Assembly: GCF_001423485.1 (NCBI RefSeq)
Contig: NZ_LMOD01000002.1
Location: 274,539-338,538 of the forward strand
DNA length: 64,000 bases
From: Microbacterium sp. Leaf320
Lineage (GTDB): Bacteria > Actinomycetota > Actinomycetes > Actinomycetales > Microbacteriaceae
Direction: 5' to 3'
Positions 41,652 through 55,222 of this stretch are shown here, piece after piece. The notes beneath the pieces were generated by a model. The model was not told where the DNA came from, made no database searches, and saw nothing but the letters and a program-made list of their open reading frames with translations. A program made the translations under genes and the position numbers. Numbering within the stretch: the stretch's first letter is position 1; the number at the start of each line of letters is the position of its first letter.

Positions 41652-42536
41652 ATGATCCTCACCGAGCACTCTCGCCCATCGCACACCTTCGTGCACATCT
41701 CCGATACGCACCTTCCCGGTGAACGCGCGCCGCTGTATGGCAGCGGGGCGGATGCCGATGCGAACCTTGCGTCTGTGCTCGCCCGGTTGGTGTCTTCCGG
41801 GCTTCGCCCTGACGCGCTGCTGTTCACGGGGGATCTCGCGGATCGGGGTGATGCGTCGTCGTATCGGCGCTTGCAGGAGTTGGTGGTGCCTGCGGTTGAG
41901 GCGTTGGGGTGCGAGGTCGTGTGGGCCATGGGCAACCACGATGAGCGTGGGGCGATGCGGGCGGAGTTGGGGCTCTCGGGGGGCGCTTCGGATGCTGTGG
42001 TCGAGGTGCGGTGGTTCGGCGGGATGCGGGTGATCGTGCTGGATTCGACGGTTCCCGGGCAGCACTGGGGTCGGGTCGATGAGGCGCAGCTGTCATGGTT
42101 GGCGGCTGAGCTGGCCACGCCCGCGCCGGAAGGTTCGCTGCTGCTGATCCATCACCCGCCACTGCCGACGGTGCTCGACCTCGCGGTGACCGTTGAGCTG
42201 CGTGAGCAGGCGGCGCTGGCTGCGGTACTGGCCGGGTCCGATGTGCGGGGGATCCTGTCGGGCCACGTGCATCACCCGTCGTTCGGGACGTTCGCGGGGA
42301 TTCCGGTGGCGGCCGCGTCATCGAGCGCGTATGGGCAGGATCTGGCTCAGCCGGTTGGCGCTACCCGTGGGCAGGATGCAGCGCAGGGGTACAACCTCGT
42401 GCACGTGTACGACGGAACGATCGTGCACTCGGTCGTCGGGCTTGAAGTTGGGGCGGATGTCGGGGAGCCGGTTGCAGCGGAGGAAGCGGGGAGACGGATC
42501 GCTGGGCGTGGGATCAGCTGGCGCGAGCGGGTCTAG
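41652..42536 (+). CDS. calcineurin-like metallophosphoesterase (class III phosphodiesterase, CpdA/GpdQ type)
   Basis: This 294-residue cytosolic enzyme has all binuclear-metal motifs in order: HISDTHLPG, FTGDLADRGD, AMGNHDE, HHPP and GHVHH. The short HTHL-initial form belongs to the class III cyclic-nucleotide or glycerophosphodiester phosphodiesterases. GGAAGAG precedes the ATG at 41652. It follows the LacI gene by 40 bases and probably degrades a phosphodiester brought in by the upstream importer. Codon choice is somewhat less GC-biased than in the importer genes. Confidence 0.85.
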   Translation: MILTEHSRPSHTFVHISDTHLPGERAPLYGSGADADANLASVLARLVSSGLRPDALLFTGDLADRGDASSYRRLQELVVPAVEALGCEVVWAMGNHDERGAMRAELGLSGGASDAVVEVRWFGGMRVIVLDSTVPGQHWGRVDEAQLSWLAAELATPAPEGSLLLIHHPPLPTVLDLAVTVELREQAALAAVLAGSDVRGILSGHVHHPSFGTFAGIPVAAASSSAYGQDLAQPVGATRGQDAAQGYNLVHVYDGTIVHSVVGLEVGADVGEPVAAEEAGRRIAGRGISWRERV

Positions 42537-42545
42537 TCCACCCCG

Positions 42546-42576
42546 TTCGTTGAGCGAGCGAAGCGAGACGAAACGC
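42546..42576 (+). repeat. dispersed repeat unit, short form
   Basis: TTCGTTGAGCGAGCGAAG followed by CGAGACGAAACGC is a contracted version of the unit at 14299-14340. It fills the space between the convergent phosphoesterase and HAD genes. Confidence 0.65.
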
Positions 42577-42581
42577 GGCAA

Positions 42582-43178
42582 TCAGTCCACGATGCCCGCT
42601 TCGCGCAGTGCCGCGCGAAGCTCCGCGACTCCTGTGAAGTGATGTGTCGGCATCCCGATCGCCTCCGCCCCGACGAGCTTGCCGACAGAGTCGTCGGTGA
42701 AGAAGACCTCGTGCGGCGCGAGCTGCATCGCATCGAGCACGTGCTGGAACGCTCGCACGTCAGGCTTCGTCCACCCGATCTCAGCGGAGTTGAAGACAGC
42801 CTCGAAGTGAGAGCCGAGGTTGATCGAATCGACCTCGTCCGGAATCGTGTCGGTCCCGTTGGGCAGGATCGCGGTGCGGATGCCGTTCGCTCGCAGTCCA
42901 TCGACAAGGTCCAGCACCTCCTCGTCGACGCGGAAGGGCTGACTCCCCCATCCATCGGCAGCCTCAGCGTTGCCGAGCTCTTCGCCGATCCGCTCAACCC
43001 ACTCGCGGCGGGAGATGCGGCCGGTCGTCACCTGTTCGAGATGGTGTGGAGCGAAGGCAATGGCTTCGATCGAACCGGGTTCGAGTTCGTACGCTCTCTC
43101 AATGCTCGCGACGTTCTCGGGGTCGAAGTGACGGACGACGCCATCGAGGTCGAGGAGCACAGCGCGGATGGGAGGCAC
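42582..43178 (-). CDS. HAD-superfamily hydrolase
   Basis: This 198-residue phosphatase-like protein has motif I LLDLDGVV with the nucleophilic Asp, motif II ILPNGTD, a Lys in WTKPDVRAF and motif IV FFTDDSVGKLVGA. The cap is small and helical (C1 type), as in YihX or haloacid-dehalogenase relatives. The GTG at 43178 has TAGCCT exactly 6 bases upstream, so it is probably leaderless. The substrate is unknown. It marks the left edge of the defence island. Confidence 0.87.
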   Translation of the reverse strand: MPPIRAVLLDLDGVVRHFDPENVASIERAYELEPGSIEAIAFAPHHLEQVTTGRISRREWVERIGEELGNAEAADGWGSQPFRVDEEVLDLVDGLRANGIRTAILPNGTDTIPDEVDSINLGSHFEAVFNSAEIGWTKPDVRAFQHVLDAMQLAPHEVFFTDDSVGKLVGAEAIGMPTHHFTGVAELRAALREAGIVD

Positions 43179-43233
43179 CGGAACAGGCTACCGGGGTAGA
43201 CAGTCACCGACCGTCGTAGGCCATGATCAGAGC

Positions 43234-43902
43234 ATGGAAGCTTCGACGATTCTCCCGAGGACCCTGATCGACATCTCGCGCCGCTACGACATCCCGGTCG
43301 CGAACATCCGGGTTGCTCTGAGGTCGAAGTATCCCGAGCTTCGCAAGATGCCCGGGTCGCTTGAGCTGAGTGACGATCATGTCGCCCATATCCTGGCTAG
43401 CTTCCCGACCGAAACCGCGCGCCATCTTGAAGCCATTTCGACGCCTGCACTTCTCCGGCAATATGCGGACATCATCGCCGAACTGCGGGCTCGCGGCGTC
43501 ATACGGACGGCCAACGCACCCGTTGGAGACTACGCAGAGCACCTCGCGCAGCAGGTGTACGGCGGGACGCTTGAGAACAACTCGGTGAAGTCACATGACC
43601 TGCTGAGCGAAGCCTCTCAGCGCATTCAAGTGAAGGCGCGAGCCGTAGGAAAGGCGAGCAACCGTACGACGAAGTTCTCGACCTTTCGGTCATTCGAATT
43701 CGACCTCGCTTGCTTCCTCCTGTTCGATTCCCGTACGTACAACCTCATCTGGGCACGCGAGCTCGCGCCTGACGTCGCGCGCTCACTGGCTCGACACTCA
43801 GACCATGTGAACGGGGATCACCTGACCAGGGCCGTCGTCGAGCGTGAAGGTGAAGACGTGACGGCGGACTTTCGACGCGTCCTGGACTTGGCGGGATCGT
43901 AG
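43234..43902 (+). CDS. predicted PD-(D/E)XK nuclease-fold protein (DUF6998-like)
   Basis: This 222-residue protein has a helical N-terminal half and a C-terminal domain beginning at TANAPVGDYAEHLAQQVYGG. E102, D122 and the Q132-x-K134 pair (RIQVKARAV) are spaced like a restriction-endonuclease-fold active site with Q in place of the usual D/E before the lysine. I recall this architecture as DUF6998. It converges on the next gene with only 4 bases between stops. A nuclease or defence role is inferred from fold and setting. The start at 43234 lacks a clear ribosome-binding site. Confidence 0.65.
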   Translation: MEASTILPRTLIDISRRYDIPVANIRVALRSKYPELRKMPGSLELSDDHVAHILASFPTETARHLEAISTPALLRQYADIIAELRARGVIRTANAPVGDYAEHLAQQVYGGTLENNSVKSHDLLSEASQRIQVKARAVGKASNRTTKFSTFRSFEFDLACFLLFDSRTYNLIWARELAPDVARSLARHSDHVNGDHLTRAVVEREGEDVTADFRRVLDLAGS

Positions 43903-43906
43903 AGGT

Positions 43907-44389
43907 TCACCCCCGATCAGGGAGGAGTTCGCGTCCGCCGAAGATCGGTACAGCTCTCAGTTCCAAGGCATAAGGCTCAAGATCCTCAGCGGATCGCGCG
44001 CCCTGCACATCGGACCCCACATACCAATAAAGGTGCCGGGAACCGTCCTGGCGATGCTGCTGCGCGAGGGCAAGAGCTTCGTTGCGAGTCATCAACCACG
44101 CACGATCTGAACTGAGATCGACGAGGACGAGGGTCTCCGCCCGAAGGTCATGTGGAAATGTAAACCCGAGGGACAAGCGCCCCGTACCACCGGCCGGAGT
44201 AGGGGTGTACTTCGTTTTTACTTGAACCGTTGTTGCCCGCGTAGCTCCCGGCGCGTACACGACGAGGTCGACCCCGGAGTCGGTCGTAAGGCGTGCCGAA
44301 TCCAACCCCATCTTGAGCAGCTTGTACTGGGTAAGGAGCTCACCGGCTGCTCCGATGTGCAGAGTACTCAGGGATGACGAGGCACCCAA
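43907..44389 (-). CDS. predicted PD-(D/E)XK nuclease-fold protein, partner of the HsdR-like gene
   Basis: This 160-residue protein has E17 (HIGAAGELL), D41 (DSGVDLVVYA) and Q56-x-K58 (TTVQVKTKY), again an E...D...QxK restriction-endonuclease-like site. A C-terminal beta region contains YWYVGSDV. No ATG precedes the conserved Glu. The TTG at 44389 has AGGA 9 bases upstream and lies 5 bases after the upstream stop codon, so it is translated with the HsdR-like gene. Function is unknown. Confidence 0.6.
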   Translation of the reverse strand: MGASSSLSTLHIGAAGELLTQYKLLKMGLDSARLTTDSGVDLVVYAPGATRATTVQVKTKYTPTPAGGTGRLSLGFTFPHDLRAETLVLVDLSSDRAWLMTRNEALALAQQHRQDGSRHLYWYVGSDVQGARSAEDLEPYALELRAVPIFGGRELLPDRG

Positions 44390-44394
44390 CGCAC

Positions 44395-45480
44395 TCAGTC
44401 CTTGTATCGCCGCACGGCGTCCCTGATCGCGTCGGCATGAGCATAGATCTCGTCCAGCTCCTCGAGAGCATGGCGCGTCTCGACCTTCTCTTCGTCGAGC
44501 AGGCCGAGGTACTTCTGCTTGCCGTTGAAATGAAGGCGCGCGACCGGCTTGCGGTTGTTGTCGTCGAGAAGGACGGCGAAGTAGCTCTTCGCATCGCGGT
44601 GGGTCACTCGCTGTGGCTTCACTTCTCCACAAGCGATGGCCTTCACGATCTGGTAGCCCTCAAGCTCCTCCAGAGTTGTCTCGATCTCTGTATCCCGATC
44701 GAGGTCTGCCTCCGCTACCTCGGCGCTGGCGGGTGCTGGCGCCGTCGACGTATGAGTGATCCCGCTGACGCCCAGCGCAGTCTTGAGCCTCTCGTTGACC
44801 CGCTCCGTAAGGAACTGCTGACCGGCCTTGCTCACTAGAGTCGTGAACTGCTGACGGACCTTCTGCGTGTAGGAACCGTCGAGCACGCGCGTCGCGAAGA
44901 ACTTGATCCACTCGTCGGTGGGCTCGCGGAACTGTGCCGCGATCTCGCGCTTGAGCGCTCCGATGTACTTGAGTTCCTCTGCGGCGCTGATGATCGAGTC
45001 GAGATCGAAGCTCTCCTTGCTGAGCTTTTGGATCTCGTGGATGAGCGTCTCGTCGATGTCGAGCAGATCAAGGACGAGGAACGGCTTCGCGTCCATGCGG
45101 TTCGGAGCATCGAGGTCGGTGTAGAACTGCCAGACCACGCCATTGGTCAAGATCGCGATCCGGGCATTGGTGACAGAGAAGTAGCGGAACAGCTGTGACG
45201 CGTGCTCGATCTTGAGCGCACCCATCGACGGCTTGCACTCGATGAGGATCTGCACCTCACCATCACGCATGATGGCGTAGTCGACCTTCTCGCCCTTTTT
45301 GGTGCCCACGTCTGCCGTGAACTCCGGGACGACCTCAAGCGGGTCGAACACGTCGTACCCGAGGATGGTCGAGATGAACGGCATCACGAAGGCGTTCTTC
45401 GTCGCCTCCTCTGTCCCGATTGCCGTTGCCTGGTTCTTCACCTTGGTCGCCAGTGAATCGAGACGCTCCGAGAACTCCAC
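44395..45480 (-). CDS. type I restriction HsdR N-terminal-like nuclease protein without helicase
   Basis: This 361-residue protein has an N-terminal HSDR_N_2-type nuclease domain: D67 (KGEKVDYAIM) and E81-x-K83 (ILIECKPS), then IEHASQLFRYFSVT and AILTNGVVWQFYTDL. The rest is helical with a C-terminal SYFAVLLDDNNRKPVARLHFN beta module. A full HsdR has about 1000 residues with helicase motors, which are absent here, and no hsdM or hsdS lies nearby. The GTG at 45480 is chosen because GGAG precedes it. It is the first gene of a two-gene operon. Confidence 0.75.
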   Translation of the reverse strand: MEFSERLDSLATKVKNQATAIGTEEATKNAFVMPFISTILGYDVFDPLEVVPEFTADVGTKKGEKVDYAIMRDGEVQILIECKPSMGALKIEHASQLFRYFSVTNARIAILTNGVVWQFYTDLDAPNRMDAKPFLVLDLLDIDETLIHEIQKLSKESFDLDSIISAAEELKYIGALKREIAAQFREPTDEWIKFFATRVLDGSYTQKVRQQFTTLVSKAGQQFLTERVNERLKTALGVSGITHTSTAPAPASAEVAEADLDRDTEIETTLEELEGYQIVKAIACGEVKPQRVTHRDAKSYFAVLLDDNNRKPVARLHFNGKQKYLGLLDEEKVETRHALEELDEIYAHADAIRDAVRRYKD

Positions 45481-45934
45481 CGCTACTCCGCTCTTCGTTG
45501 AACACGCATTCATCCAGACGATAGCGGAATACCGGGACATCGGGAGGGACGCTGTGCGCCTGGTCAATGCGCCGGCAACCAGAGATAAAAGCGCGCGATG
45601 GCGCCGCAGCTCTGTGGGGCGCGACTACCACGGCGCGACCGCACACATCGATGCGGTGAACACGCATCTGTGCGAGTCGCCGACGGCGTGCGATATGCAG
45701 ACGCTTGCGCGGGTCATGACGCAGGGCAGTCGGCACTTCCGGGCGCAGCAGCCGCGGAGCGCGACGCCCCGGAGGCACCACCTGCAAACCTGAAAATCTC
45801 CATCGCGAGGATCGACGAATCCTGCCCCGTCGGCAGATCCGCCCTAGCGATCCCATCTGCGCCACCAGACCGAATCTCATCGCGGCCCGAACCGAAACGG
45901 CGCAAAAGAGTGCGACAGGAGATAGCGTGAGAGC
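45481..45934. other. 454-base gap without a recognised gene
   Basis: This stretch lies between the HsdR-like gene and the SIR2 gene and should hold their divergent promoters. Open frames exist on both strands (for example minus strand 45714-45905) but none has a convincing start signal, family motif or codon pattern. It may contain remnants of older island genes. I see no tRNA or strong inverted repeat. Confidence 0.5.
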
Positions 45935-47089
45935 GTGACCGATCATTCAGCTAGCTCCTTTATCGCGGGGCTCTCCGCCCGACTGGCAACTCGCATGCGC
46001 CACATTTGCGTTTTTCTCGGTGCTGGATCCTCGCGACCGGCGGGCCTCCCGGATATGAACGGGCTGAGCAGCGCCGTGTCGACGACATTAAGAGAACCAG
46101 ACAGGGCCACGTTTGAGGCAATGGTCGGAGACCACGGTCTGGAAGGCACGCTAACGCGATTGCGACGAATCGCCGCGCTCGTCGAGGGAGATGACGAGAT
46201 CCAGGGCGTTTCGGGCACGCAAGCAGACCGACTAGATGCGGCGATCTGCTCGGCTATAGTCTCTGCCTTGAGTGCTATCCCAGCAAACACCCGCGCCGCA
46301 GACGATTTTGCCGCATGGATCGCCAGAGCAAATTATTCACGCCCCGTCGAAGTCTTTACCGTGAACTACGATCTGATGATCGAAACTGCCCTTGATAAGA
46401 TCGGTGCGCCATACTTTGACGGATTTATCGGAATGCAACGAGCACGTTTCCGAAGTGATCTCATCGAAGCACGCGAGACAGACGAAAATTATATTCCCGC
46501 GTTCTTTGCACGCGTATGGAAGATGCATGGCTCTCTGAACTGGGAAGCGAGCGCCACGGGAGTAGTACGACTCGGCTCCACCGTCAGAGCGGGGCGGTCT
46601 GCTGCTATTTACCCATCCGATGCGAAGTACCACGAATCGCGACGGATGCCTTTTGTTGTCCTTCAGGATCGCTTTCGTCGCGCTTTGTACGAAAATGAAA
46701 CCCTCGCGCTTGTTGCTGGATACTCATGGGGTGATGAGCATCTTAACGAGTACCTATTTGACGCCGCAAGTCGCCGCCAACGCTCCGAGGTTATCGCCTT
46801 CAGCCACGGAGAGCTTCCAGTTGAACTGGTAGATTTCGCAAGGCGAACACCGAATCTCCAACTGATCGGTTCAACGGAGGCGGTGATTGGGGGTGTGCGC
46901 GGGCGGTGGCAGGAACCGGAGGATACGCAACTCCCTAGTGACGTTTGGGCCGATCAAAAGTTGAAGCTTGGAGATTTCGCCTCACTTGCATCTTTCCTTG
47001 CTCGAGCAAGCGGCGCGAGCTCTCCAGACCAGACAGAGGTCGCGGCGGCACCCAACCGTGAAGCCGGCGCAGCGGATGGGGGGGCCTAA
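45935..47089 (+). CDS. SIR2-like NAD+-consuming defence protein
   Basis: This 384-residue cytosolic protein has a SIR2-like domain: NAD-binding FLGAGSSRPAGLPD (27-40), TVNYD with the conserved Asn at 144, HGS with the catalytic His at 198, and GYSWGDEHLNEY (262-273). In phage defence, such domains hydrolyse NAD+ upon infection. The C-terminal 110 residues are unassigned. The GTG start follows AGGAG by a rather long 13 bases. The next gene encodes a HerA ATPase and starts 2 bases after the stop. The region is A/T-richer than its flanks, suggesting horizontal transfer. Confidence 0.88.
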   Translation: MTDHSASSFIAGLSARLATRMRHICVFLGAGSSRPAGLPDMNGLSSAVSTTLREPDRATFEAMVGDHGLEGTLTRLRRIAALVEGDDEIQGVSGTQADRLDAAICSAIVSALSAIPANTRAADDFAAWIARANYSRPVEVFTVNYDLMIETALDKIGAPYFDGFIGMQRARFRSDLIEARETDENYIPAFFARVWKMHGSLNWEASATGVVRLGSTVRAGRSAAIYPSDAKYHESRRMPFVVLQDRFRRALYENETLALVAGYSWGDEHLNEYLFDAASRRQRSEVIAFSHGELPVELVDFARRTPNLQLIGSTEAVIGGVRGRWQEPEDTQLPSDVWADQKLKLGDFASLASFLARASGASSPDQTEVAAAPNREAGAADGGA

Positions 47090-47091
47090 GG

Positions 47092-48861
47092 GTGCGTCAC
47101 ATTTCTTCAACCCGAATTGGGCAGGTCCAGGAAGTTTTGGGCGCTCAGGTGACCGCCGAGTTAGATCCTGAGCTTGCCGGCATCTCACCGGTGCACGAAG
47201 GAGAGATCCGAACAATTGGCCAGGTTGGGTCGCTTGTACTCATTCCTCAAGGAATGGTCGATTTGGTTGCTATGGTGGAATCAGTAGGTCTCTCGGAGCT
47301 GTCACCTTCAGACCGCATGCCAATTCCGTTTGTCGCTGCGGGACGACGGTGGTTGCGTCTCCAAGTAATCGGCGAGGTTGACCGAGGTACAAGACAGTTC
47401 ACGCGTGGTATCGCAAACTACCCAGCCCTTGGCGATCAGGTGCACTTGTCAAGCACCGACGACATATCGGCACTATTTCCCCGGTCAGGTGAGTTGCGGA
47501 TCGAGATTGGCCACCTATCAACCGCGAAGTCAGTCCCGGTCACGCTTGACGTTGGCAAGCTCGTCCTGAGACACAGCGCAGTAGTTGGATCAACTGGGTC
47601 AGGAAAGACAAGCGTCGTCGCGGCGTTGCTACAACGATTCTCTAACGCGGACTGGCCCGGAGCGAACGTCATCGTTATTGATAGTCATGGAGAGTATCGG
47701 AATACCCTCGATGAGGGCATGTCCGTGCGATCCGTCCTCGGGCGCGACCAGGAGGCTCTGCCGGTTCCGTTCTGGGCCCTGCCTGCCACGGAGATACTCA
47801 GGGTATTCTCCGGCGTAACAGCCAGTGCGACGACTCAAAAGTCATTCGCCAACATTGTTGAGGACGAGCGTAGGGAGTTCCTTGCACAGTGTGATTGGCT
47901 AGATCTACCGCGAGCTGCCGTGACTGCGGATACTCCGGTGCCATTCGATCTCAATCGAGCCTGGCTGCGACTAGACAGTGAGAATCGGGAAACTCGAACT
48001 GACAAGGGCGACCCCCGTACCGCATGCGTGATCTCTGTCGGCGACTCCTCGACGCTCACACCAACGGAATACGAACCGAACGGCCCGGGCTCGACGCCGC
48101 CCCATCAGGCAACCACCTACGGTACACACGGCTCAGTTCCGGCTGCACTTCGTTTGGGACTTCTCGACCCGAGACTGGGCTTCATGAGGAGCACCGGGGC
48201 AGAGACCAAGCAGGACACGCTCGCCGAAGCGATTCGCGCATGGGTCGGGGGAAGCAGTCCAGTGTCCGTCCTCGACTTCAGTGGTGTGGCAAATCATGTT
48301 GCCGAACTCGCGATCAGCGTTGTCCTGAAGCTGCTTTTCGAGACAGCGACGCGGTCTCGCCCAAGCGAGGATAGCGTTGGTAGGTCACGACCAGTCCTGG
48401 TTGTAATCGAAGAGGCGCATCGATATCTCGGGAATGATTCTCTCGAGGCAGCAAAGGATGCTGTTAACAGGATTGCTCGCGAAGGACGGAAATATGGAAT
48501 CGGGCTGATGTTGGTCACTCAACGACCATCCGAACTACCCGATACCACGCTCTCTCAATGCGGCACCCTGATCGCCCTCCGTCTGTCAAACAGCACCGAC
48601 CAGGGACGAATTCGGCAAGCGCTACCTGACGAAATGAGAAGCACCACAGACGCTCTGTCTTCATTGCGAGTAGGTGAAGCCATCGTTAGCGGCGAAGCGT
48701 CGTCTTTCCCCGCACGGGTGATACTGAATACACCAGCCCCTTGGCCCCGCGCCGAGGATCCTGATATCTCATCTTGGCGTTCGGAGAACAGCTTCCCTGA
48801 TGTTGAGCTCGCCCTCGAACGCTGGCGCGGCATTTACAATGAAGAGAAGAGGAAAGAATGA
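47092..48861 (+). CDS. HerA/FtsK-like ATPase of a SIR2-HerA system
   Basis: This 589-residue protein has a HAS-barrel-like N-terminus and a HerA ATPase core: Walker A GSTGSGKT at 166-173, IVIDSHGEY, Walker B VLVVIEEAHRYL at 435-446, and sensor region MLVTQRPSELPDTTLSQCG. HerA proteins form hexameric DNA translocases. In SIR2-HerA systems they assemble with SIR2 and regulate NADase activity. The GTG at 47092 lies 2 bases after the SIR2 stop codon. The stop overlaps the KTSC gene start (ATGA), so all three genes are translationally coupled. Confidence 0.88.
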   Translation: MRHISSTRIGQVQEVLGAQVTAELDPELAGISPVHEGEIRTIGQVGSLVLIPQGMVDLVAMVESVGLSELSPSDRMPIPFVAAGRRWLRLQVIGEVDRGTRQFTRGIANYPALGDQVHLSSTDDISALFPRSGELRIEIGHLSTAKSVPVTLDVGKLVLRHSAVVGSTGSGKTSVVAALLQRFSNADWPGANVIVIDSHGEYRNTLDEGMSVRSVLGRDQEALPVPFWALPATEILRVFSGVTASATTQKSFANIVEDERREFLAQCDWLDLPRAAVTADTPVPFDLNRAWLRLDSENRETRTDKGDPRTACVISVGDSSTLTPTEYEPNGPGSTPPHQATTYGTHGSVPAALRLGLLDPRLGFMRSTGAETKQDTLAEAIRAWVGGSSPVSVLDFSGVANHVAELAISVVLKLLFETATRSRPSEDSVGRSRPVLVVIEEAHRYLGNDSLEAAKDAVNRIAREGRKYGIGLMLVTQRPSELPDTTLSQCGTLIALRLSNSTDQGRIRQALPDEMRSTTDALSSLRVGEAIVSGEASSFPARVILNTPAPWPRAEDPDISSWRSENSFPDVELALERWRGIYNEEKRKE

Positions 48862-49079
48862 TCGAACTCCTGTGGAGAGATGTTTCATCCTCCCGTATTG
48901 TAGCTGAAGCCTACGACCCGGAGACCGAGACAATTTACGTTCGATTTCCGTCCGGGGTCGAGTGGCGCTACGAGGGTTGTCCGCCAGACATATGGGAAGC
49001 GTTCAGCAGAGACGGACAGTCACGTGGAGCCTTCATCCATGAGGTACTCAACTACAAAAGCCATGGCAGACACGGATAG
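48858..49079 (+). CDS. KTSC-domain protein, third gene of the SIR2-HerA operon
   Basis: This 73-residue protein matches the KTSC domain: SSSRIVAEAYDPETETIYVR, FPSGVEWRYEGCPPDIWEAF and a final HEVLNYKSH segment. The domain is a small beta-rich fold also found at the C-terminus of some lysyl-tRNA synthetases; its role is unclear. GAGAGGAAAGA precedes the ATG, which overlaps the HerA stop codon by 4 bases. The coupling makes it a likely accessory subunit or substrate sensor of the defence complex. Confidence 0.8.
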   Translation: MIELLWRDVSSSRIVAEAYDPETETIYVRFPSGVEWRYEGCPPDIWEAFSRDGQSRGAFIHEVLNYKSHGRHG

Positions 49080-49117
49080 CTAAAGCCTAGGCAACCAGAG
49101 ATCTGATTTCGCTGGGT

Positions 49118-50047
49118 TCATGAACCCGCGCGCTTGATATTGGCCCAGTCTTCAGCGTCTTTCTTAAGAATTTCCTTTAGGGCTGAGGCGAAGGCTGTGG
49201 TTTTTGTTTCACCATCGCCTTCCTCTCCGCTAGCGCTACGCTTCGAGAGCTCGACGTCAAGGCGCAGTGCTTGAAGTTGGCTAAGCACTCCCGAGCGCTG
49301 TACCCAGAGTTCGGCGTGATGGAAATGAGCGTTCCAGGCAAGTAGCACGGCTGCCGTTGCTGACGCCGCGGTAGTCATCACAGAAATAACCTCGACCCAC
49401 AGGTCCGTCGCAAGTGCCGCGCTTACGGCTCCGAAAACGGCGACAAGCCCGCTAAGGGAAGTTGTCCATATCGTCACGAGCGAAGCGCGCCTCTTCACCA
49501 CCCGTCTCGCTCTCGCGTACTCCGCCTCCCAGCCCTCCAAGTAATGGTCTAGCACCTCCGCGCGCGACAGATCCGCTGCCGGTGGTTCCGGCGATCTCAC
49601 ACCACTGGTGCCGGATTCCTGTTCTTCGCCGCCCTCAACAGCAAGGCCGGTCGCCAGCGTCCAGGCACTCAAGGCTATTACGACGACAGAAAGGATGCTG
49701 CCTGCGAGCGGTACTGCTGGAATCGAATCGAGCACAATGAAGAGAATGCTCCCGCCAAGCAGCGTTGCACAAGCGACCAGTGAGCGCCGCCGCAGTAGGC
49801 GCTCTTTAGCAACATATGCTGAACGCATCGTGAGTATTGTTGCTGCAAACCACAAGCCTAAAGTCAACCAAGAAGTCGTCGCCCAAAGGTCTCGTGCCAT
49901 GTCTTCGCTCGAGCCATATGATGCTGATTCTATCGCTCGAGTTATCGGGACCCCGATAAGCGCAAGCGTCACTAGACAGGCGACGCGGAGCCAGCCTGTT
50001 CGTTGATCAGGCGGGCCCTGGTCCTTCGCCTGCGCGAGTGTTGACAA
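49118..50047 (-). CDS. SLATT/DUF4231-like multi-pass membrane protein
   Basis: This 309-residue protein has six predicted helices. There are four in the N-terminal half, then a charged linker (SRAEVLDHYLEGWEAEYARA), then a closely spaced pair followed by WNAHFHHAELWVQRSG. The last helix pair with its downstream amphipathic helix resembles SLATT/DUF4231 domains, which are pore-forming effectors in nucleotide-signal defence systems. It starts with TTG at 50047, with GAGG 7 bases upstream overlapping the stop codon of a small upstream frame. It converges on the KTSC gene. No signal-producing synthase is adjacent. Confidence 0.65.
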   Translation of the reverse strand: MSTLAQAKDQGPPDQRTGWLRVACLVTLALIGVPITRAIESASYGSSEDMARDLWATTSWLTLGLWFAATILTMRSAYVAKERLLRRRSLVACATLLGGSILFIVLDSIPAVPLAGSILSVVVIALSAWTLATGLAVEGGEEQESGTSGVRSPEPPAADLSRAEVLDHYLEGWEAEYARARRVVKRRASLVTIWTTSLSGLVAVFGAVSAALATDLWVEVISVMTTAASATAAVLLAWNAHFHHAELWVQRSGVLSQLQALRLDVELSKRSASGEEGDGETKTTAFASALKEILKKDAEDWANIKRAGS

Positions 50048-50056
50048 CTCCGTACC

Positions 50057-50284
50057 TCACTTGCTGCTTAAGGAGTCCGATCTTTCAGTCGCGATCTTAG
50101 CCAGAAACTCCTCCCGCTGCTCGTCACTCAAGCACCGCCGCGGCCTCGATGTCCAGCCGAGCCGAGGTCTCACTTCGATTCTGATGCGGGAAGATTGCCG
50201 CGCTCTGCTCGCCCGGAGACCATGCGCTACGTCGGCATCTCGTGCGCGGCGCGGTTCTCCTGCTCGCGAGAAGCGCCCTGACAA
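50057..50284 (-). CDS. possible small gene or gene remnant upstream of the SLATT-like gene
   Basis: A minus-strand frame ends with a TGA at 50057-50059, 10 bases before the SLATT-like TTG, with the ribosome-binding site overlapping the stop. Its C-terminus (CLSDEQREEFLAKIATERSD) reads like genuine helical protein, but the start is unclear; a TTG at 50284 is possible. The N-terminal part is Arg-rich and unconvincing, and a frameshift from the neighbouring frame (50124-50348) is conceivable. No family is recognised. Confidence 0.3.
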   Translation of the reverse strand: MSGRFSRAGEPRRARDADVAHGLRASRARQSSRIRIEVRPRLGWTSRPRRCLSDEQREEFLAKIATERSDSLSSK

Positions 50285-50695
50285 GAAAGTGTGGGTCCTG
50301 GGGCTTTTTCTGCCCCAATCTCTGAGTCGCCAAATAGATGCCGCTCAATCGGCAGATACGTCATGTCGGCTGCGCGCTGCAGCTACCGGTCGGGACGTGT
50401 CCCCGAGCCTCGACTCGCGGGGTCGATGCGCCGCCAGCGACGGTCTTAGCGTCTCGCGCTGGCATTCGACGGGAAGTTCACGATGTCTGACATTCAGCGA
50501 CGAGTTTCCTTCGCGCGTCGACGTCTACAGACCTAGGAATTCCCAGTCCTGGCGGAGAACGACCCACGTACCGGCCGGGTGGCACACACCGTCAAGATGA
50601 AGCCGACGCATCGACCGACCGCTAGGTGCAGCCAACATCTGAACACGCGCGTAAACTCTCCCATAAATAGACGCACCGTTGCGAAACCCAAGCCT
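50285..50695. other. noncoding gap before the SDR gene
   Basis: About 410 bases without a supportable gene. Codon patterns in the open frames are poor. The last 60 bases must contain the SDR promoter. This is a plausible left junction of island DNA with the SDR locus, but I see no direct repeat that proves it. Confidence 0.4.
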
Positions 50696-50709
50696 CAAGG
50701 AGCTCCACC

Positions 50710-51711
50710 ATGGCCCTCACCGCACACTCCACCATCGGCGACTGGATGAACGACCCGACCGGCGGGCCACTCATCCGCGCACTCTTCGAGCAGACGGGCG
50801 CTGACCCCGAGCTCCTCACCCCCGTGCTCGGGCTGCCGCTGCAGCAGCTCGTCGCGATGAGCCAGGGCGCCCTCCCGCAGTCGGTCGTCGACGACCTCGT
50901 GCGCGCTGCCAACGGCGGCGATATCCCCGAGGCTGACGAGTCCGAGGGCTGGACCGAGAAGCCCACCACCGGACGTTTCGCCGGCAAGACCGTGATCGTC
51001 ACGGGCGCAGCATCCGGAATCGGCAAGGCCACCGCATCCCGCATCGCCCGCGAAGGCGGACGCGTGATCGCCTCCGACATCGCCGCCGACAAGCTCGACG
51101 CCCTGAAGGCCGAGCTGCCGGATGCCGACATCACCACCGTCGCCGGAGACCTCACCAAGCAGGACGCGATCGACGCCGTCATCGCCGCCGCGGGCGACCG
51201 CATCGATGCCCTCGCGAACGTCGCCGGCATCAACGACGATTTCTCGCCCGCAGGCGAGACGACGGATGCGGTCTGGGACCGCGTCATCGCCATCAACCTC
51301 ACGGCCCCGTTCAAGCTCATGCGCGCGGTGCTGCCGATCATGGAGAAGGCCGGCCGCGGCTCGATCCTCAACGTCTCGAGCGAAGCGGGCCTGCGCGGCA
51401 ACTCGTCAGGCAATGCCTACACGGCCAGCAAGCACGGCATCATCGGCGTCACGAAGTCCGCGGCATTCATGTACGGGCCGAAGGGCATCCGCGTGAATTC
51501 CGTCGCTCCGGGCGGCGTCGCCACCGGCATCCCGATGCCCCCGAACATGTCGGAGTACGGCTCCGGTCGCCTGGCTCCGTTCCAGCAGTCGATCCCGACG
51601 GTCGCGACCGCCGAGCACCTCGCCGCGTCGATCACGTTCCTGTTGTCGGACGACGCCGTGAACATCAACGGTGCTGTGCTGGCATCTGACGGGGGATGGT
51701 CGGTGCAGTAA
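50710..51711 (+). CDS. SDR-family oxidoreductase with N-terminal extension
   Basis: This 333-residue protein has an N-terminal extension of about 85 residues (begins MALTAHSTIGDWMNDPTGGP) that ordinary SDRs lack. A classical SDR domain follows: GAASGIGKAT cofactor motif, DLT, NVAGIND, catalytic Ser in NVSSEAGLRG and YTASKHG with the Tyr/Lys pair. The extension resembles the tail module that some beta-hydroxyacid or glycerol-type SDRs use for oligomer contacts. AAGGAG precedes the ATG. The last 226 bases of the gene are duplicated at 52603-52828 beyond an HNH gene. Confidence 0.88.
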   Translation: MALTAHSTIGDWMNDPTGGPLIRALFEQTGADPELLTPVLGLPLQQLVAMSQGALPQSVVDDLVRAANGGDIPEADESEGWTEKPTTGRFAGKTVIVTGAASGIGKATASRIAREGGRVIASDIAADKLDALKAELPDADITTVAGDLTKQDAIDAVIAAAGDRIDALANVAGINDDFSPAGETTDAVWDRVIAINLTAPFKLMRAVLPIMEKAGRGSILNVSSEAGLRGNSSGNAYTASKHGIIGVTKSAAFMYGPKGIRVNSVAPGGVATGIPMPPNMSEYGSGRLAPFQQSIPTVATAEHLAASITFLLSDDAVNINGAVLASDGGWSVQ

Positions 51712-51757
51712 GCGCCTCGATGACCACGCCCCTGCCGACCCGAACGGCAGGGGCGTT
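51486..51757 (+). repeat. direct repeat copy 1: 3' end of the SDR gene plus terminator
   Basis: These 272 bases align without gaps to 52603-52874 with 13 mismatches (about 95%). Mismatches in the coding part are nearly all third-position; the only amino-acid change is Ser to Ala (QQS versus QQA). The repeat flanks the HNH gene. Confidence 0.9.
51727..51755 (+). terminator. intrinsic terminator after the SDR gene
   Basis: CGCCCCTGCCG (51727-51737), ACCCGAA loop and CGGCAGGGGCG (51745-51755) form a perfect 11-base stem, followed by TTCTT. The same structure is repeated at 52844-52872. Confidence 0.85.
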
Positions 51758-51828
51758 CTTCGTGTTCAACGCGTCCTCTGTGTGCGTAATACTGGGATTC
51801 TGATCGGGATCAGGAGGCCGCAAAGATC

Positions 51829-52548
51829 ATGGCGCAGAGAATCGGCTGGCTGCACGACGAACTGCTCCTCGCCGCTGACCTCGTAAGCCGCAACCATTGG
51901 TCTGCTGTACGCGCGAACAACCCTGCAGCGGAAGAGCTGTCTCAGTTGCTTCGACAGGGCACACTCCACCCTGGCAAGGTGCTGCCGGATGACTTTCGTT
52001 CGCCCTGGTCGATTCAGCGAAAGACATTCGATCTCGCTACTTCCGACCCCTCATACCAGGGCAAGGCGACTCGAGGCGCGTTGCGAGACGCCGGCGTTCT
52101 TGCCGCATTCCGACGCGATGTCAACGGTATGCAGGCGGCTGCAGCAGAGGTGCGACGCCTTCTTCTTGAGAACCTGGCGCTACCGCAAGATTGGTCGACC
52201 GATGTCGATAACCTCTCCTTCGATGAGGGCGGGGTAGTTGAGTACTTGGGCCGCAGGCGCGAGCGCAGCTCAAGACTGCGCGAGGCGAAAATAAGCGACG
52301 CCCTCAAGTCGAGGGGCTCACTGGAATGCGAGATCTGCCAGTTTGACTTCAGCGCCTTCTACGGGTCGCGGGGGGATCGCTACATCGAGGTGCACCATCG
52401 AACCCCACTCCATGCCTCCGGGAGTACCCACTCTTCGTTAAAGGAGCTCGTTCTCCTTTGCGCCAACTGCCACAGGATGTGCCACCGTGGAAACTGGATC
52501 ACTCCGGACGAGTTAGGAGCGATGATTCGGGAAGCTCGCGGCGCCTAA
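51829..52548 (+). CDS. HNH endonuclease
   Basis: This 239-residue protein has a helical N-terminal domain of unknown function and a C-terminal HNH nuclease: zinc-type C167/C170 (CEIC), catalytic HH at 189-190 (YIEVHHRTPL), and C211/C214 with H215 (CANCHRMCH). The layout resembles McrA-like or standalone restriction HNH proteins. AGGAGG precedes the ATG at 51829 by 11 bases. The gene and its own promoter-like TAATACT sit exactly between two copies of the SDR 3' end, so it appears to be cargo of an insertion event. Confidence 0.87.
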   Translation: MAQRIGWLHDELLLAADLVSRNHWSAVRANNPAAEELSQLLRQGTLHPGKVLPDDFRSPWSIQRKTFDLATSDPSYQGKATRGALRDAGVLAAFRRDVNGMQAAAAEVRRLLLENLALPQDWSTDVDNLSFDEGGVVEYLGRRRERSSRLREAKISDALKSRGSLECEICQFDFSAFYGSRGDRYIEVHHRTPLHASGSTHSSLKELVLLCANCHRMCHRGNWITPDELGAMIREARGA

Positions 52549-52602
52549 CAACGAGGCCACGGCCCCGATGGGACACCCGCTGGGAGGTGTGCGGTAGGAG
52601 CA

Positions 52603-52874
52603 CATCCGCGTGAACTCCGTCGCACCGGGCGGCGTCGCCACCGGCATCCCGATGCCCCCGAACATGTCGGAGTACGGCTCCGGCCGCCTGGCCCCGTTCC
52701 AGCAGGCGATCCCGACGGTCGCGACCGCCGAGCACCTCGCCGCGTCGATCACCTTCCTGTTGTCGGACGACGCCGTGAACATCAACGGTGCCGTGCTGGC
52801 ATCCGATGGTGGATGGTCGGTGCAGTAAGCACCTCGATGACTACGCCCCTGCCGATCCGAACGGCAGGGGCGTT
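52603..52874 (+). pseudogene. displaced 3' fragment of an SDR gene with its terminator (repeat copy 2)
   Basis: The fragment encodes the last 75 residues of the SDR protein in frame to the stop codon at 52826-52828 and retains the terminator. It has no 5' part or ribosome-binding site; a GTG at 52610 is internal. Because its differences from copy 1 are mostly silent, the two copies seem to have diverged while both were parts of working genes. It therefore looks like the original 3' end, displaced when a related allele plus HNH gene arrived. Confidence 0.85.
52844..52872 (+). terminator. terminator of the displaced SDR fragment
   Basis: Same 11-base stem as 51727-51755 with loop ATCCGAA, followed by TTTC. 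It faces the convergent restriction-enzyme gene. Confidence 0.7.
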
Positions 52875-52920
52875 TCACTCTACGCACGACAGGTCCGTCG
52901 AGCGCCAGCCTCCTGACGCG

Positions 52921-53790
52921 CTAGATCGTCAGGTCAAGGGGAAGGTCGGCGATGTCTCGGAGACGCTTGCCGGTGATGAGAGTTTGAAGCGTCTGCTGCG
53001 CTTCATCGTTGTCGCTTAACTTGGTCGCCTCTACGAGCTCCGGCAACGCGAAGTGGTAGACCGTGTCGAGATCACCCGTCCCCAAGGCAAGTGAAGCGAG
53101 CCTCGAGGGAGACGGCTCTCCTGTCACGACAACGATGTGAGGGGCGCGGCCCTTTCTGTTGCGAATTAGGCCAAGTGCCTCGGTTCGCGCATTCTGGGCA
53201 CGGTCGGAGCGAAGCGTCCACTTGCACGAGATCACCGCGTGGACGATTGCGTGGCTCTGGTTGGCCTGACGGATGGGCGAGTAACGTCCATGCTCGTCAT
53301 CGACGATGATGCGATCAGCGTTGATCGCTGAGTCCGGTACTGGAAGACGAACGACGATCACGTCAGGGGAAACGTCGTAGGAGTTGCCAAGCACGCTTGC
53401 GAGAATCGGACTCGCCTTGATCTGCCGGGCCAGTTCGTCGAGGTGACGGTACGGCTCGAACTGAGCGAGCTGATACCCGCTTCTCGACCCGCCAACGTTC
53501 TCCACCGCCCAGTTGCCGGGCCTGAGCCCTCCGAGATGCGGCATCGCTCGCGCCACGAAGTTGCGGACCGCCGTTTCGAACTGGCTACCTGCGCGTTGGC
53601 CGTCGAGCTTCACTCCGCCCATTCCCGCCCCAAGGCTTTGCGCAATTCTCAGTGCGGCTTCGCGGGAGAACCGCTGGCCTGAATCGGCATTGGACGCAAC
53701 GCCCTTTTCATCTACTACGAGAGTTCGGTTGAGCACCAACTCCTGATGAAAGTCGGCCCTAGCTTGCGATAGCAGCGCTCGTTGATTCAC
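52921..53790 (-). CDS. NgoMIV-like type II restriction endonuclease
   Basis: This 289-residue protein has the complete NgoMIV-family active site: E72 (SQFE), D143 (SPDVIVV), S188-C-K190 (ISCKWTLRSDRAQNART) and E204. These match NgoMIV E70, D140, S185, K187 and E201 as I recall them, with nearly the same spacing. NgoMIV cuts GCCGGC as a tetramer needing two sites. The GTG start follows GGGGGAA. It lies 47 bases downstream of a cytosine methyltransferase on the same strand, forming a modification-then-restriction operon. Confidence 0.85.
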   Translation of the reverse strand: MNQRALLSQARADFHQELVLNRTLVVDEKGVASNADSGQRFSREAALRIAQSLGAGMGGVKLDGQRAGSQFETAVRNFVARAMPHLGGLRPGNWAVENVGGSRSGYQLAQFEPYRHLDELARQIKASPILASVLGNSYDVSPDVIVVRLPVPDSAINADRIIVDDEHGRYSPIRQANQSHAIVHAVISCKWTLRSDRAQNARTEALGLIRNRKGRAPHIVVVTGEPSPSRLASLALGTGDLDTVYHFALPELVEATKLSDNDEAQQTLQTLITGKRLRDIADLPLDLTI

Positions 53791-53837: not shown

Positions 53838-55115
53838 TCAGCTGATCTTGTTGCGCTCCCGAGCGATCACGCCGTGACGCCAGTGGTCGGCTTGCCCGGT
53901 GAACCCTCGGAACTCACCCAGCTGGTAGCGATCCACTCCCTGATCTTCAACGATCACGAGCTCGAAATCACGCTGCAAGGCAGCAAGCCGCTGCTGCACC
54001 GCCGCCACGCTGCCGTCGTTGTATGCGGCGACGAGCTCGTCGAGGCTGAGTGGCTGCTCGCTTCGAGACAGTGCCCTGTAGACAGGATCGTGAAGGTCCG
54101 TCTGGTCGGCAATGTCGGTGCGAGGTGCGCCCTCTCGAAGCAGAGCCGCGCGGATACTCTCACCGATCGCTTGAGCGACCGGTGGGGGGAATGCGTTGCC
54201 GATCTGGCGGTACTGCGAGGTCTTCCGACCCGAGAACGAATAGTTGTCTTCTTCGCGCCAGCCCTGAACGCGCGCCGTCATCTCGATCGTGAGCCTCGGC
54301 ATAACCTGGCTAGGCGGTAGAGCGTCAGGGCCAGGTGCAGCGTCGGCAACGCCGCGGCCATCGACGCTGAGCTTCGCCCAGCCCGCTTTCGCGCGGGTCG
54401 GACCGAGGTCAGCACCTCCATGCTTCTTGCTGCCTCCGACGAGCGTCGGGCCGATGTCGTTAGCGAGTCGACGCCACTCTTCGGCGTGAGGCCACCCCGC
54501 TGAGGCCATGAGCGGAAACAGTGCGTCGCCGACCGTAGTGCGCGCGCGGCCGTCCGGCTCGGGCCAACGGAAGTACTTCATGTCTTCTGCAGCCATGGCA
54601 ATCAGGACGAACCTTGGCCGCAACTGAGGTACCCCGAAGTCGGAAGCATTGAGCAGTTTCCACTCCCCGACAAAACCGAAGTCTTCGAGACGATCAAGAA
54701 CACGCTGCCGATACGCAGCAAAACGCGGAGCTGACAAGCCACGAACGTTTTCGAGCATCACCGCCCGAGGACGGATCACCGGAATCTGCTCGATCGCCCA
54801 TGCGAAGAGGTCTCGCTCGTCTGAGGTTCCGAGCTGCTTCCCGGCTGCGGAGAACGGAGGGCATGGAACGCCACCAGCGAGCAGGGTCACATCGGCGTAA
54901 TTGGCCGGCTCCCACACCTTCGGATCCGCCACATCTCCGACGACAACGGGCGCACCAAGGTTCTGCCTAAGCGTTTCGGCTGCTGTCTCGTCCAACTCGA
55001 CAGCAACGACGTGCCGAAAACCTGCCTTGTGCAGTCCTAGAGACTGCCCACCCGCTCCAGCGCAGATCTCCGCGACAGTGAACGCGGGCGGGTTCTGCTC
55101 ATTCTCAACATGCAC
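53838..55115 (-). CDS. DNA (cytosine-5) methyltransferase, partner of the NgoMIV-like enzyme
   Basis: This 425-residue enzyme has all main C5-methyltransferase motifs: AdoMet-binding ICAGAGGQSLGL (about 17-28), the catalytic PCPPFS with C85, ENVRG at 122-126, a QLRPRF motif VIII, and motif X RQIGNAFPPPVA. The PCPPFS variant instead of PCQPFS is found in several GC-rich-site enzymes. A C-terminal extension of about 95 residues after motif X is unassigned. It should protect GCCGGC from the downstream nuclease. It starts with GTG at 55115. Confidence 0.88.
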   Translation of the reverse strand: MHVENEQNPPAFTVAEICAGAGGQSLGLHKAGFRHVVAVELDETAAETLRQNLGAPVVVGDVADPKVWEPANYADVTLLAGGVPCPPFSAAGKQLGTSDERDLFAWAIEQIPVIRPRAVMLENVRGLSAPRFAAYRQRVLDRLEDFGFVGEWKLLNASDFGVPQLRPRFVLIAMAAEDMKYFRWPEPDGRARTTVGDALFPLMASAGWPHAEEWRRLANDIGPTLVGGSKKHGGADLGPTRAKAGWAKLSVDGRGVADAAPGPDALPPSQVMPRLTIEMTARVQGWREEDNYSFSGRKTSQYRQIGNAFPPPVAQAIGESIRAALLREGAPRTDIADQTDLHDPVYRALSRSEQPLSLDELVAAYNDGSVAAVQQRLAALQRDFELVIVEDQGVDRYQLGEFRGFTGQADHWRHGVIARERNKIS

Positions 55116-55222
55116 ACTGTCATCGTACTTTCGACCCCGGACATCGGGCCCGCCGCAACACCTCCTCTCTCACACTTGAGTACTGCAAGTCCAAACTCGC
55201 TAGCCAGTGAAAGACTGAACTC

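Follow-up and report, generated by a model that had tools for sequence, protein, structure and literature searches.

The operon

The subject here is a three-gene operon of Microbacterium sp. Leaf320, with genes for SIR2, HerA and a small KTSC domain protein, in a 64,000-nucleotide stretch of contig NZ_LMOD01000002.1, the whole of which is termed the window below and supplies the position numbers (Table 1). The gap between SIR2 and HerA is just 2 bases and, with the HerA stop and the KTSC start sharing ATGA, 4 bases are common to the second and third genes, a spacing from which translational coupling of all three is predicted. Pfam identifies each product, SIR2 by SIR2_2 (PF13289, 46.3 bits against a cut-off of 24.5), HerA by DUF87 (PF01935, 99.8 bits, cut-off 23.2) and HerA_C (58.6 bits, cut-off 22), and the third protein by KTSC (PF13619, 37.7 bits, gathering cut-off 25), and the best PADLOC models are PDLC04093 for SIR2 (E 4.7e-103) and PDLC04105 for HerA (E 3.8e-129). 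Open reading frames, gap, overlap and both sets of profiles bear out the initial annotation, which had placed a SIR2-HerA operon with KTSC at this site. SIR2 residues N144, Y145, D146 and H198 are invariant in an eight-sequence alignment, and the residues corresponding to them are described as key and conserved in PMC11263360. A SIR2 with the NYD and H residues, and directly downstream a HerA with its motifs, is the make-up of a SIR2-HerA system. The NCBIfam equivalogs for anti-phage SIR2/HerA stay below their cut-offs (NF042942, 57.2 bits of 500; NF042943, 185.6 of 800; NF042944, 208.4 of 850). No PADLOC model matches the window KTSC, and for 25 KTSC proteins, that of the window and 24 relatives, PADLOC gave nothing at E <0.05, the single weak match being at E 0.052.

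Table 1. Features of the operon and its surroundings, in window positions
Feature	Positions	Strand	Remarks
SIR2	45935-47089	+	GTG start; 384 amino acids; predicted NADase effector; TxNYD and HG active-site motifs
HerA (HerA-FtsK family ATPase)	47092-48861	+	GTG start; 589 amino acids; Walker A GSTGSGKT, Walker B VVIEEAH
KTSC domain protein	48858-49079	+	ATG start; 73 amino acids; 4-base ATGA overlap with HerA stop
Genes related to type II methyl-directed restriction enzymes and to the HsdR N-terminal domain	43168-43902, 44395-45567	+, -	Upstream of operon
SLATT domain protein	49118-50047	-	Faces operon; NCBIfam 46.5 bits, cut-off 41
SDR gene 3′ end, direct repeat	51486-51757, 52603-52874		272 bp, 95%
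HNH gene	51829-52548		Between the repeat copies
NgoMIV-type restriction enzyme	52921-53790	-	357 bits
C5 cytosine methylase	53838-55115	-	Near operon; restriction-modification pair with NgoMIV-type enzyme

How often does KTSC accompany HerA?

Among 396 whole genomes sampled from the window's phylum, relatives of the HerA query P0002 (E ≤1e-20) occur in 10, and PF13619 (E ≤0.001) in 15, 14 of which exceed the cut-off. Despite that scarcity, all six genomes whose HerA match is at E <1e-40 (G000, G002, G078, G140, G289 and G342) have KTSC directly 3′ of HerA, though in G289 HerA is in pieces across two contigs, and none of the four with a weaker HerA (G001, G020, G305 and G374) has it. In 66 genomes of G140's class, a set partly overlapping the 396, HerA is present in 3 and KTSC in 5; the two are adjacent in G140 and G289, and G097, with a weak HerA, lacks KTSC. 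The best 80 of 574 named-genome loci divide just as cleanly, the first 27 all having KTSC either fused to HerA or immediately 3′ of it and the other 53 having none, with SIR2 upstream in 26 of the 27; the remaining one, L053, is cut by a contig end. In viral contigs P0002 by itself picked up no relative, and alignment A2 yielded 47 loci, 8 of them with KTSC and all 8 with SIR2; two viral loci, L141 and L150, end 9 and 30 bases past the HerA match and are unscorable for KTSC, and at L109 just 580 bases of DNA lie downstream of HerA. Plasmid records number 336, and of the 40 listed 17 were examined, with profiles used to check for KTSC: 13 have SIR2-HerA-KTSC with a HerA at least 33% identical to P0002, and 4 have a HerA of at most 30.5% identity to it without KTSC. 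Six of the 13, and all 4 of the others, were examined after the tree described below had been made, and the outcome was as it predicted.

The suggestion that KTSC is a systematic third component is thus upheld, by the six strong-HerA genomes, the 27 named loci, the 8 viral loci and the 52 clade members considered below, as is its occurrence beside HerA beyond chance, given 15 KTSC-bearing genomes among 396 and yet 6 of 6 with the gene directly after a strong HerA. Five loci with DUF4297 (L076, L097, L103, L108 and L134) have no KTSC. They are among ten loci at which the gene upstream of a KTSC-less HerA was scanned, the others giving SpoIIE, Alph_Pro_TM, ParB, an AAA-ATPase/PDDEXK_9 protein, or no match.

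Three further loci show KTSC, or what is left of it, in other company. At L024 (1483-1677) the domain is part of an open frame of 596 residues, and the 3.2 kb of sequence covered there contain no HerA match. On a Rhodococcus plasmid (L017, 5822-6213) KTSC is annotated without HerA, of which a remnant is found just upstream, apparently a decayed system in which KTSC is still open. A Serratia plasmid (L181, 4663-4749) retains a scrap of the KTSC 3′ end (91 bases, 96.7%) followed by a short recombinase/integrase gene, in a locus where neither SIR2 nor HerA is matched.

A single branch of HerA

In a FastTree of 137 HerA sequences all 46 that are associated with KTSC fall on one side of a single branch with support 100. 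Enlarging it to 146, with ten plasmid loci added and the partial L149 excluded, sets 52 whose KTSC is adjacent or fused against 94 others at support 99, with one change. The program issued a long-branch warning, and rows L118-L120 and L123-L124 are near-copies. KTSC accompanies 52 of 52 clade members and 0 of the 93 scorable outside, L141 being the unscorable one among the 94. Each of the 52 has KTSC on the strand of HerA, with its start no more than 122 bases from the end of the HerA match, and SIR2 is found in every one except the truncated L053. The clade spans Gemmatimonadota, Pseudomonadota, Bacteroidota and others, and includes the haloarchaeon Natrinema. KTSC is a constant, clade-defining part of one SIR2-HerA branch, apparently of single origin and usually its own gene, and as every examined member has it, three-part machine is a more apt description of that branch than two-part machine.

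Two members have additional neighbours. In Natrinema (L019, 6122-7099) the end of KTSC is overlapped by an ADP-ribosylglycohydrolase that follows it and whose annotation is split into two genes. In Rhizobium etli the operon has a DUF4062 gene immediately upstream (L020, 1249-2577), and PMC13174449 calls DUF4062 a family of TIR-like NADases.

Separate genes, fusions and solved structures

In 38 distinct loci with separate genes, a set from which six repeat views and the remnant L017 were excluded and in which KTSC starts were picked nearest the domain, KTSC begins anywhere from 20 bases ahead of the HerA stop to 42 bases past it. In three others, L039, L040 and L122, HerA and KTSC are fused, a methionine being retained at the junction, and the fusions need three changes on the 52-member tree. 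The same arrangement exists among solved structures, the HerA of PDB entries 8wiv and 8wld having a KTSC profile match at residues 628-695 (E 2.7e-23); the KTSC profile matched no HerA in PDB other than that of 8wiv. Of solved HerA proteins, 8wiv is also the closest to that of the window, at 336.6 bits against 187.8, and the clade HerA profile scores 793.6 bits with 8wiv against 380.1 for the next. For SIR2 the closest solved relative is 8w9l (E 1.7e-46).

An AlphaFold model of the window KTSC, with a mean predicted local distance difference test score (pLDDT) of 91.2, matches in fold 4rgi (Z 12.5) and 7x8c (Z 11.9), then residues 611-696 of 8wld chain M (Z 11.0, 1.8 Å over 69), 8wof (Z 10.3), 8wj3 (Z 9.9) and 8wiv (Z 9.9), the first unrelated chain being at 4.0. 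From these matches the KTSC domain is ordered both in HerA entries without SIR2 sequence (8wiv and 8wj3) and in entries with SIR2 and HerA (8wld and 8wof).

Co-divergence, selection and charge

Pairwise distances were correlated over 40 systems, six of the 46 (L039, L042, L053, L119, L120 and L124) having been dropped, and the values were 0.73 for HerA-KTSC, 0.63 for SIR2-KTSC and 0.87 for HerA-SIR2, with none of 2000 permutations as high. Such a correlation is a sign of shared descent, not of contact. The ratio of nonsynonymous to synonymous divergence (dN/dS) for KTSC is 0.037 in L022/L180 (70 codons) and 0.116 in L020/L042 (first 60 codons), two further pairs giving no usable dS; purifying selection thus acts on KTSC, on the evidence of these two close pairs. 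The window's subclade has six members, the haloarchaeon among them, and in it mean pairwise identity is 62.6% for KTSC, 61.3% for HerA and 53.4% for SIR2. Of 46 KTSC domains, 44 are net acidic, with a median charge of -3.5.

One of the proteins just mentioned, from a Sphingorhabdus metagenome-assembled genome (L042, 1477-4634), has a KTSC C-terminus unlike that of its kin, and the SIR2 match there is in three stretches; decay of this copy, or sequencing errors, are possible.

What might KTSC do?

The operon is probably a SIR2-HerA system of the 8wiv/8wld subtype, in which KTSC is the HerA C-terminal domain produced as a separate protein that stabilises or regulates the HerA ring. Its HerA is nearest to that of 8wiv, and KTSC is present, separate rather than fused. 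The separate protein would bind back onto the C-terminal part of HerA, the site of fusion in other members, and when bound would stabilise or regulate the ring; the ring would assemble with a SIR2 oligomer, and the assembly may trigger loss of NAD+, perhaps DNA cleavage too, during infection, so that phage would be stopped through stopping the cell, a predicted abortive infection. We infer the binding of KTSC to HerA, its copy number, its aid to assembly and the defence activity. Of the three roles guessed at in the initial annotation, assembly factor is the best fit, given that in 8wiv/8wld and three loci HerA has KTSC fused on as its C-terminal domain, and sensor and inhibitor are the less likely ones. 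A more ambitious version, that the three-component machine is obligate in the clade, with KTSC licensing it by binding to or leaving the HerA ring and so switching it between an idle and a SIR2-activating state, and with the split form ancestral and the 8wiv fusion derived and locked, we regard as rather unlikely.

Several considerations weigh against KTSC being a HerA domain made separately. Nine of the 15 genomes with PF13619 have no HerA match in flanks of up to 1.5 kb, and KTSC genes away from HerA imply that the fold serves other jobs as well. Other HerA branches commonly have SIR2-HerA pairs that lack KTSC, so the domain is not required by such pairs generally. When the window's subclade is left out (34 systems), the correlations become 0.56 for HerA-KTSC, 0.60 for SIR2-KTSC and 0.88 for HerA-SIR2. 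For the L040 fusion the AlphaFold model (mean pLDDT 80.4) shows low confidence in the linker and is matched to 8wiv over model residues 9-564 only, on account of which the placement of KTSC on HerA is not recovered from it. The C-terminal extension in the system of Liao et al. (2024) reportedly stabilises a split-spiral HerA. The review PMC12198126, which cites the same paper, goes no further than stating that a similar C-terminal hook was not seen in that system.

Could KTSC instead sense infection, signalling to HerA on recognition of nucleic acid or a phage protein? In its favour, the activation mechanism of Sir2-HerA is entered as 'Unclear' in a table of the 2025 review PMC12198126, and the KTSC protein is called DNA-binding in PMC9503650, which cites PMC7824862, where an RNA-binding domain is spoken of. 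Nevertheless the proposal is doubtful, on two indirect grounds: over the six members KTSC equals HerA in conservation and surpasses SIR2, which would not be expected of a component that follows diverse phages, and the prevailing acidic charge gives no hint that it binds nucleic acid. The idea of KTSC as a generic binder of nucleic acids is likewise weakened, the net acidic charge being the reason. That KTSC is an inhibitor or antitoxin silencing the SIR2 NADase until infection would be in keeping with a small gene sharing an operon with a probably toxic effector, and with KTSC distances tracking SIR2 as well as HerA once the window's subclade is removed, but over all 40 systems they track HerA the better. 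Moreover KTSC follows HerA, not SIR2; being covalently joined in L039, L040, L122 and 8wiv it cannot leave; and other branches have SIR2 and HerA without it, all of which makes this role improbable.

Is KTSC perhaps an unrelated passenger in a defence island, in view of KTSC genes occurring also without HerA nearby and of the locus being a variable cargo site? Against the sharp division of the tree, the fusions, the co-divergence and the purifying selection, that is scarcely credible. Chance neighbourhood was rejected on the genome counts and the single-branch distribution, and a pure passenger on co-divergence, purifying selection and the tree.

Genomic setting

This HerA is present in 1 of 29 genomes of the window's genus, that one being the window's own, so the operon was probably acquired. 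It is within a variable stretch of about 7.4 kb whose flanks are matched in genome G424, at 78% over 42602-43197 and 94.5% over 50649-51763; between these flanks G424 has about 10 kb of different DNA, except for a 51-base match at 43216-43266. Megablast of window 42500-53500 against plasmids gave no match. The neighbouring genes look defence-related (Table 1), among them the SLATT gene that faces the operon; such a gene is also found 3′ of KTSC in Pseudoalteromonas (L023). Further on, the 3′ end of an SDR gene is directly repeated, and the match to G424 resumes at 55207, right after the SDR gene. The direct repeat looks like an insertion site at which the end of that gene was copied.

Relation to known systems

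The earlier impression that KTSC in this role had not been described stands in part: the domain is in released structures and coupling of HerA with KTSC is in PMC9503650 (2022), though there with a nuclease, not SIR2. What that paper reports is a HerA-KTSC-endoDNase variant, as an unpublished observation of its authors. In the literature searched, KTSC and HerA are both named only in PMC9503650 and PMC7824862, and no paper giving KTSC as the third gene of SIR2-HerA was found, many subscription papers, and the texts of most listed ones, being outside the search; SIR2-HerA is listed among two-component systems in PMC12198126. There are practical implications. Cloning two genes from such loci could yield a silent or deregulated system, PADLOC is without a model for the KTSC part of these systems, and, with split and fused forms both occurring naturally, what the C-terminal domain does for HerA is open to direct test.

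Entries 8w9l, 8wiv, 8wld and 8wof, which reportedly show the system that Liao et al. (2024) studied from Paenibacillus, are the closest solved relatives of the window SIR2 and HerA and have the KTSC domain. The difference is that in 8wiv/8wld it is the C-terminal domain of a 696-amino-acid HerA, and in the window a separate gene of 73 amino acids. E. coli SIR2-HerA/Nezha (8j4u, 8su9 and 8uae) likewise has SIR2 and HerA, with related folds, but is distant (HerA 119.9 bits), and its HerA in PDB has no KTSC profile match. The PF13619 proteins 7x8c and 4rgi have the fold of the window KTSC as single KTSC chains without HerA. HerA-DUF4297 resembles the window operon in having an effector gene upstream of HerA, and in fold, but the effector is DUF4297 where the window has SIR2, and KTSC is absent from the five loci. 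With the HerA-KTSC-endoDNase variant of PMC9503650, the HerA-KTSC coupling is common and the partner is not, endoDNase replacing the sirtuin there and SIR2 being present in the window's clade. The present analysis adds two points: KTSC is constant in one SIR2-HerA branch, and the solved 8wiv/8wld HerA has a KTSC domain at its C-terminus.

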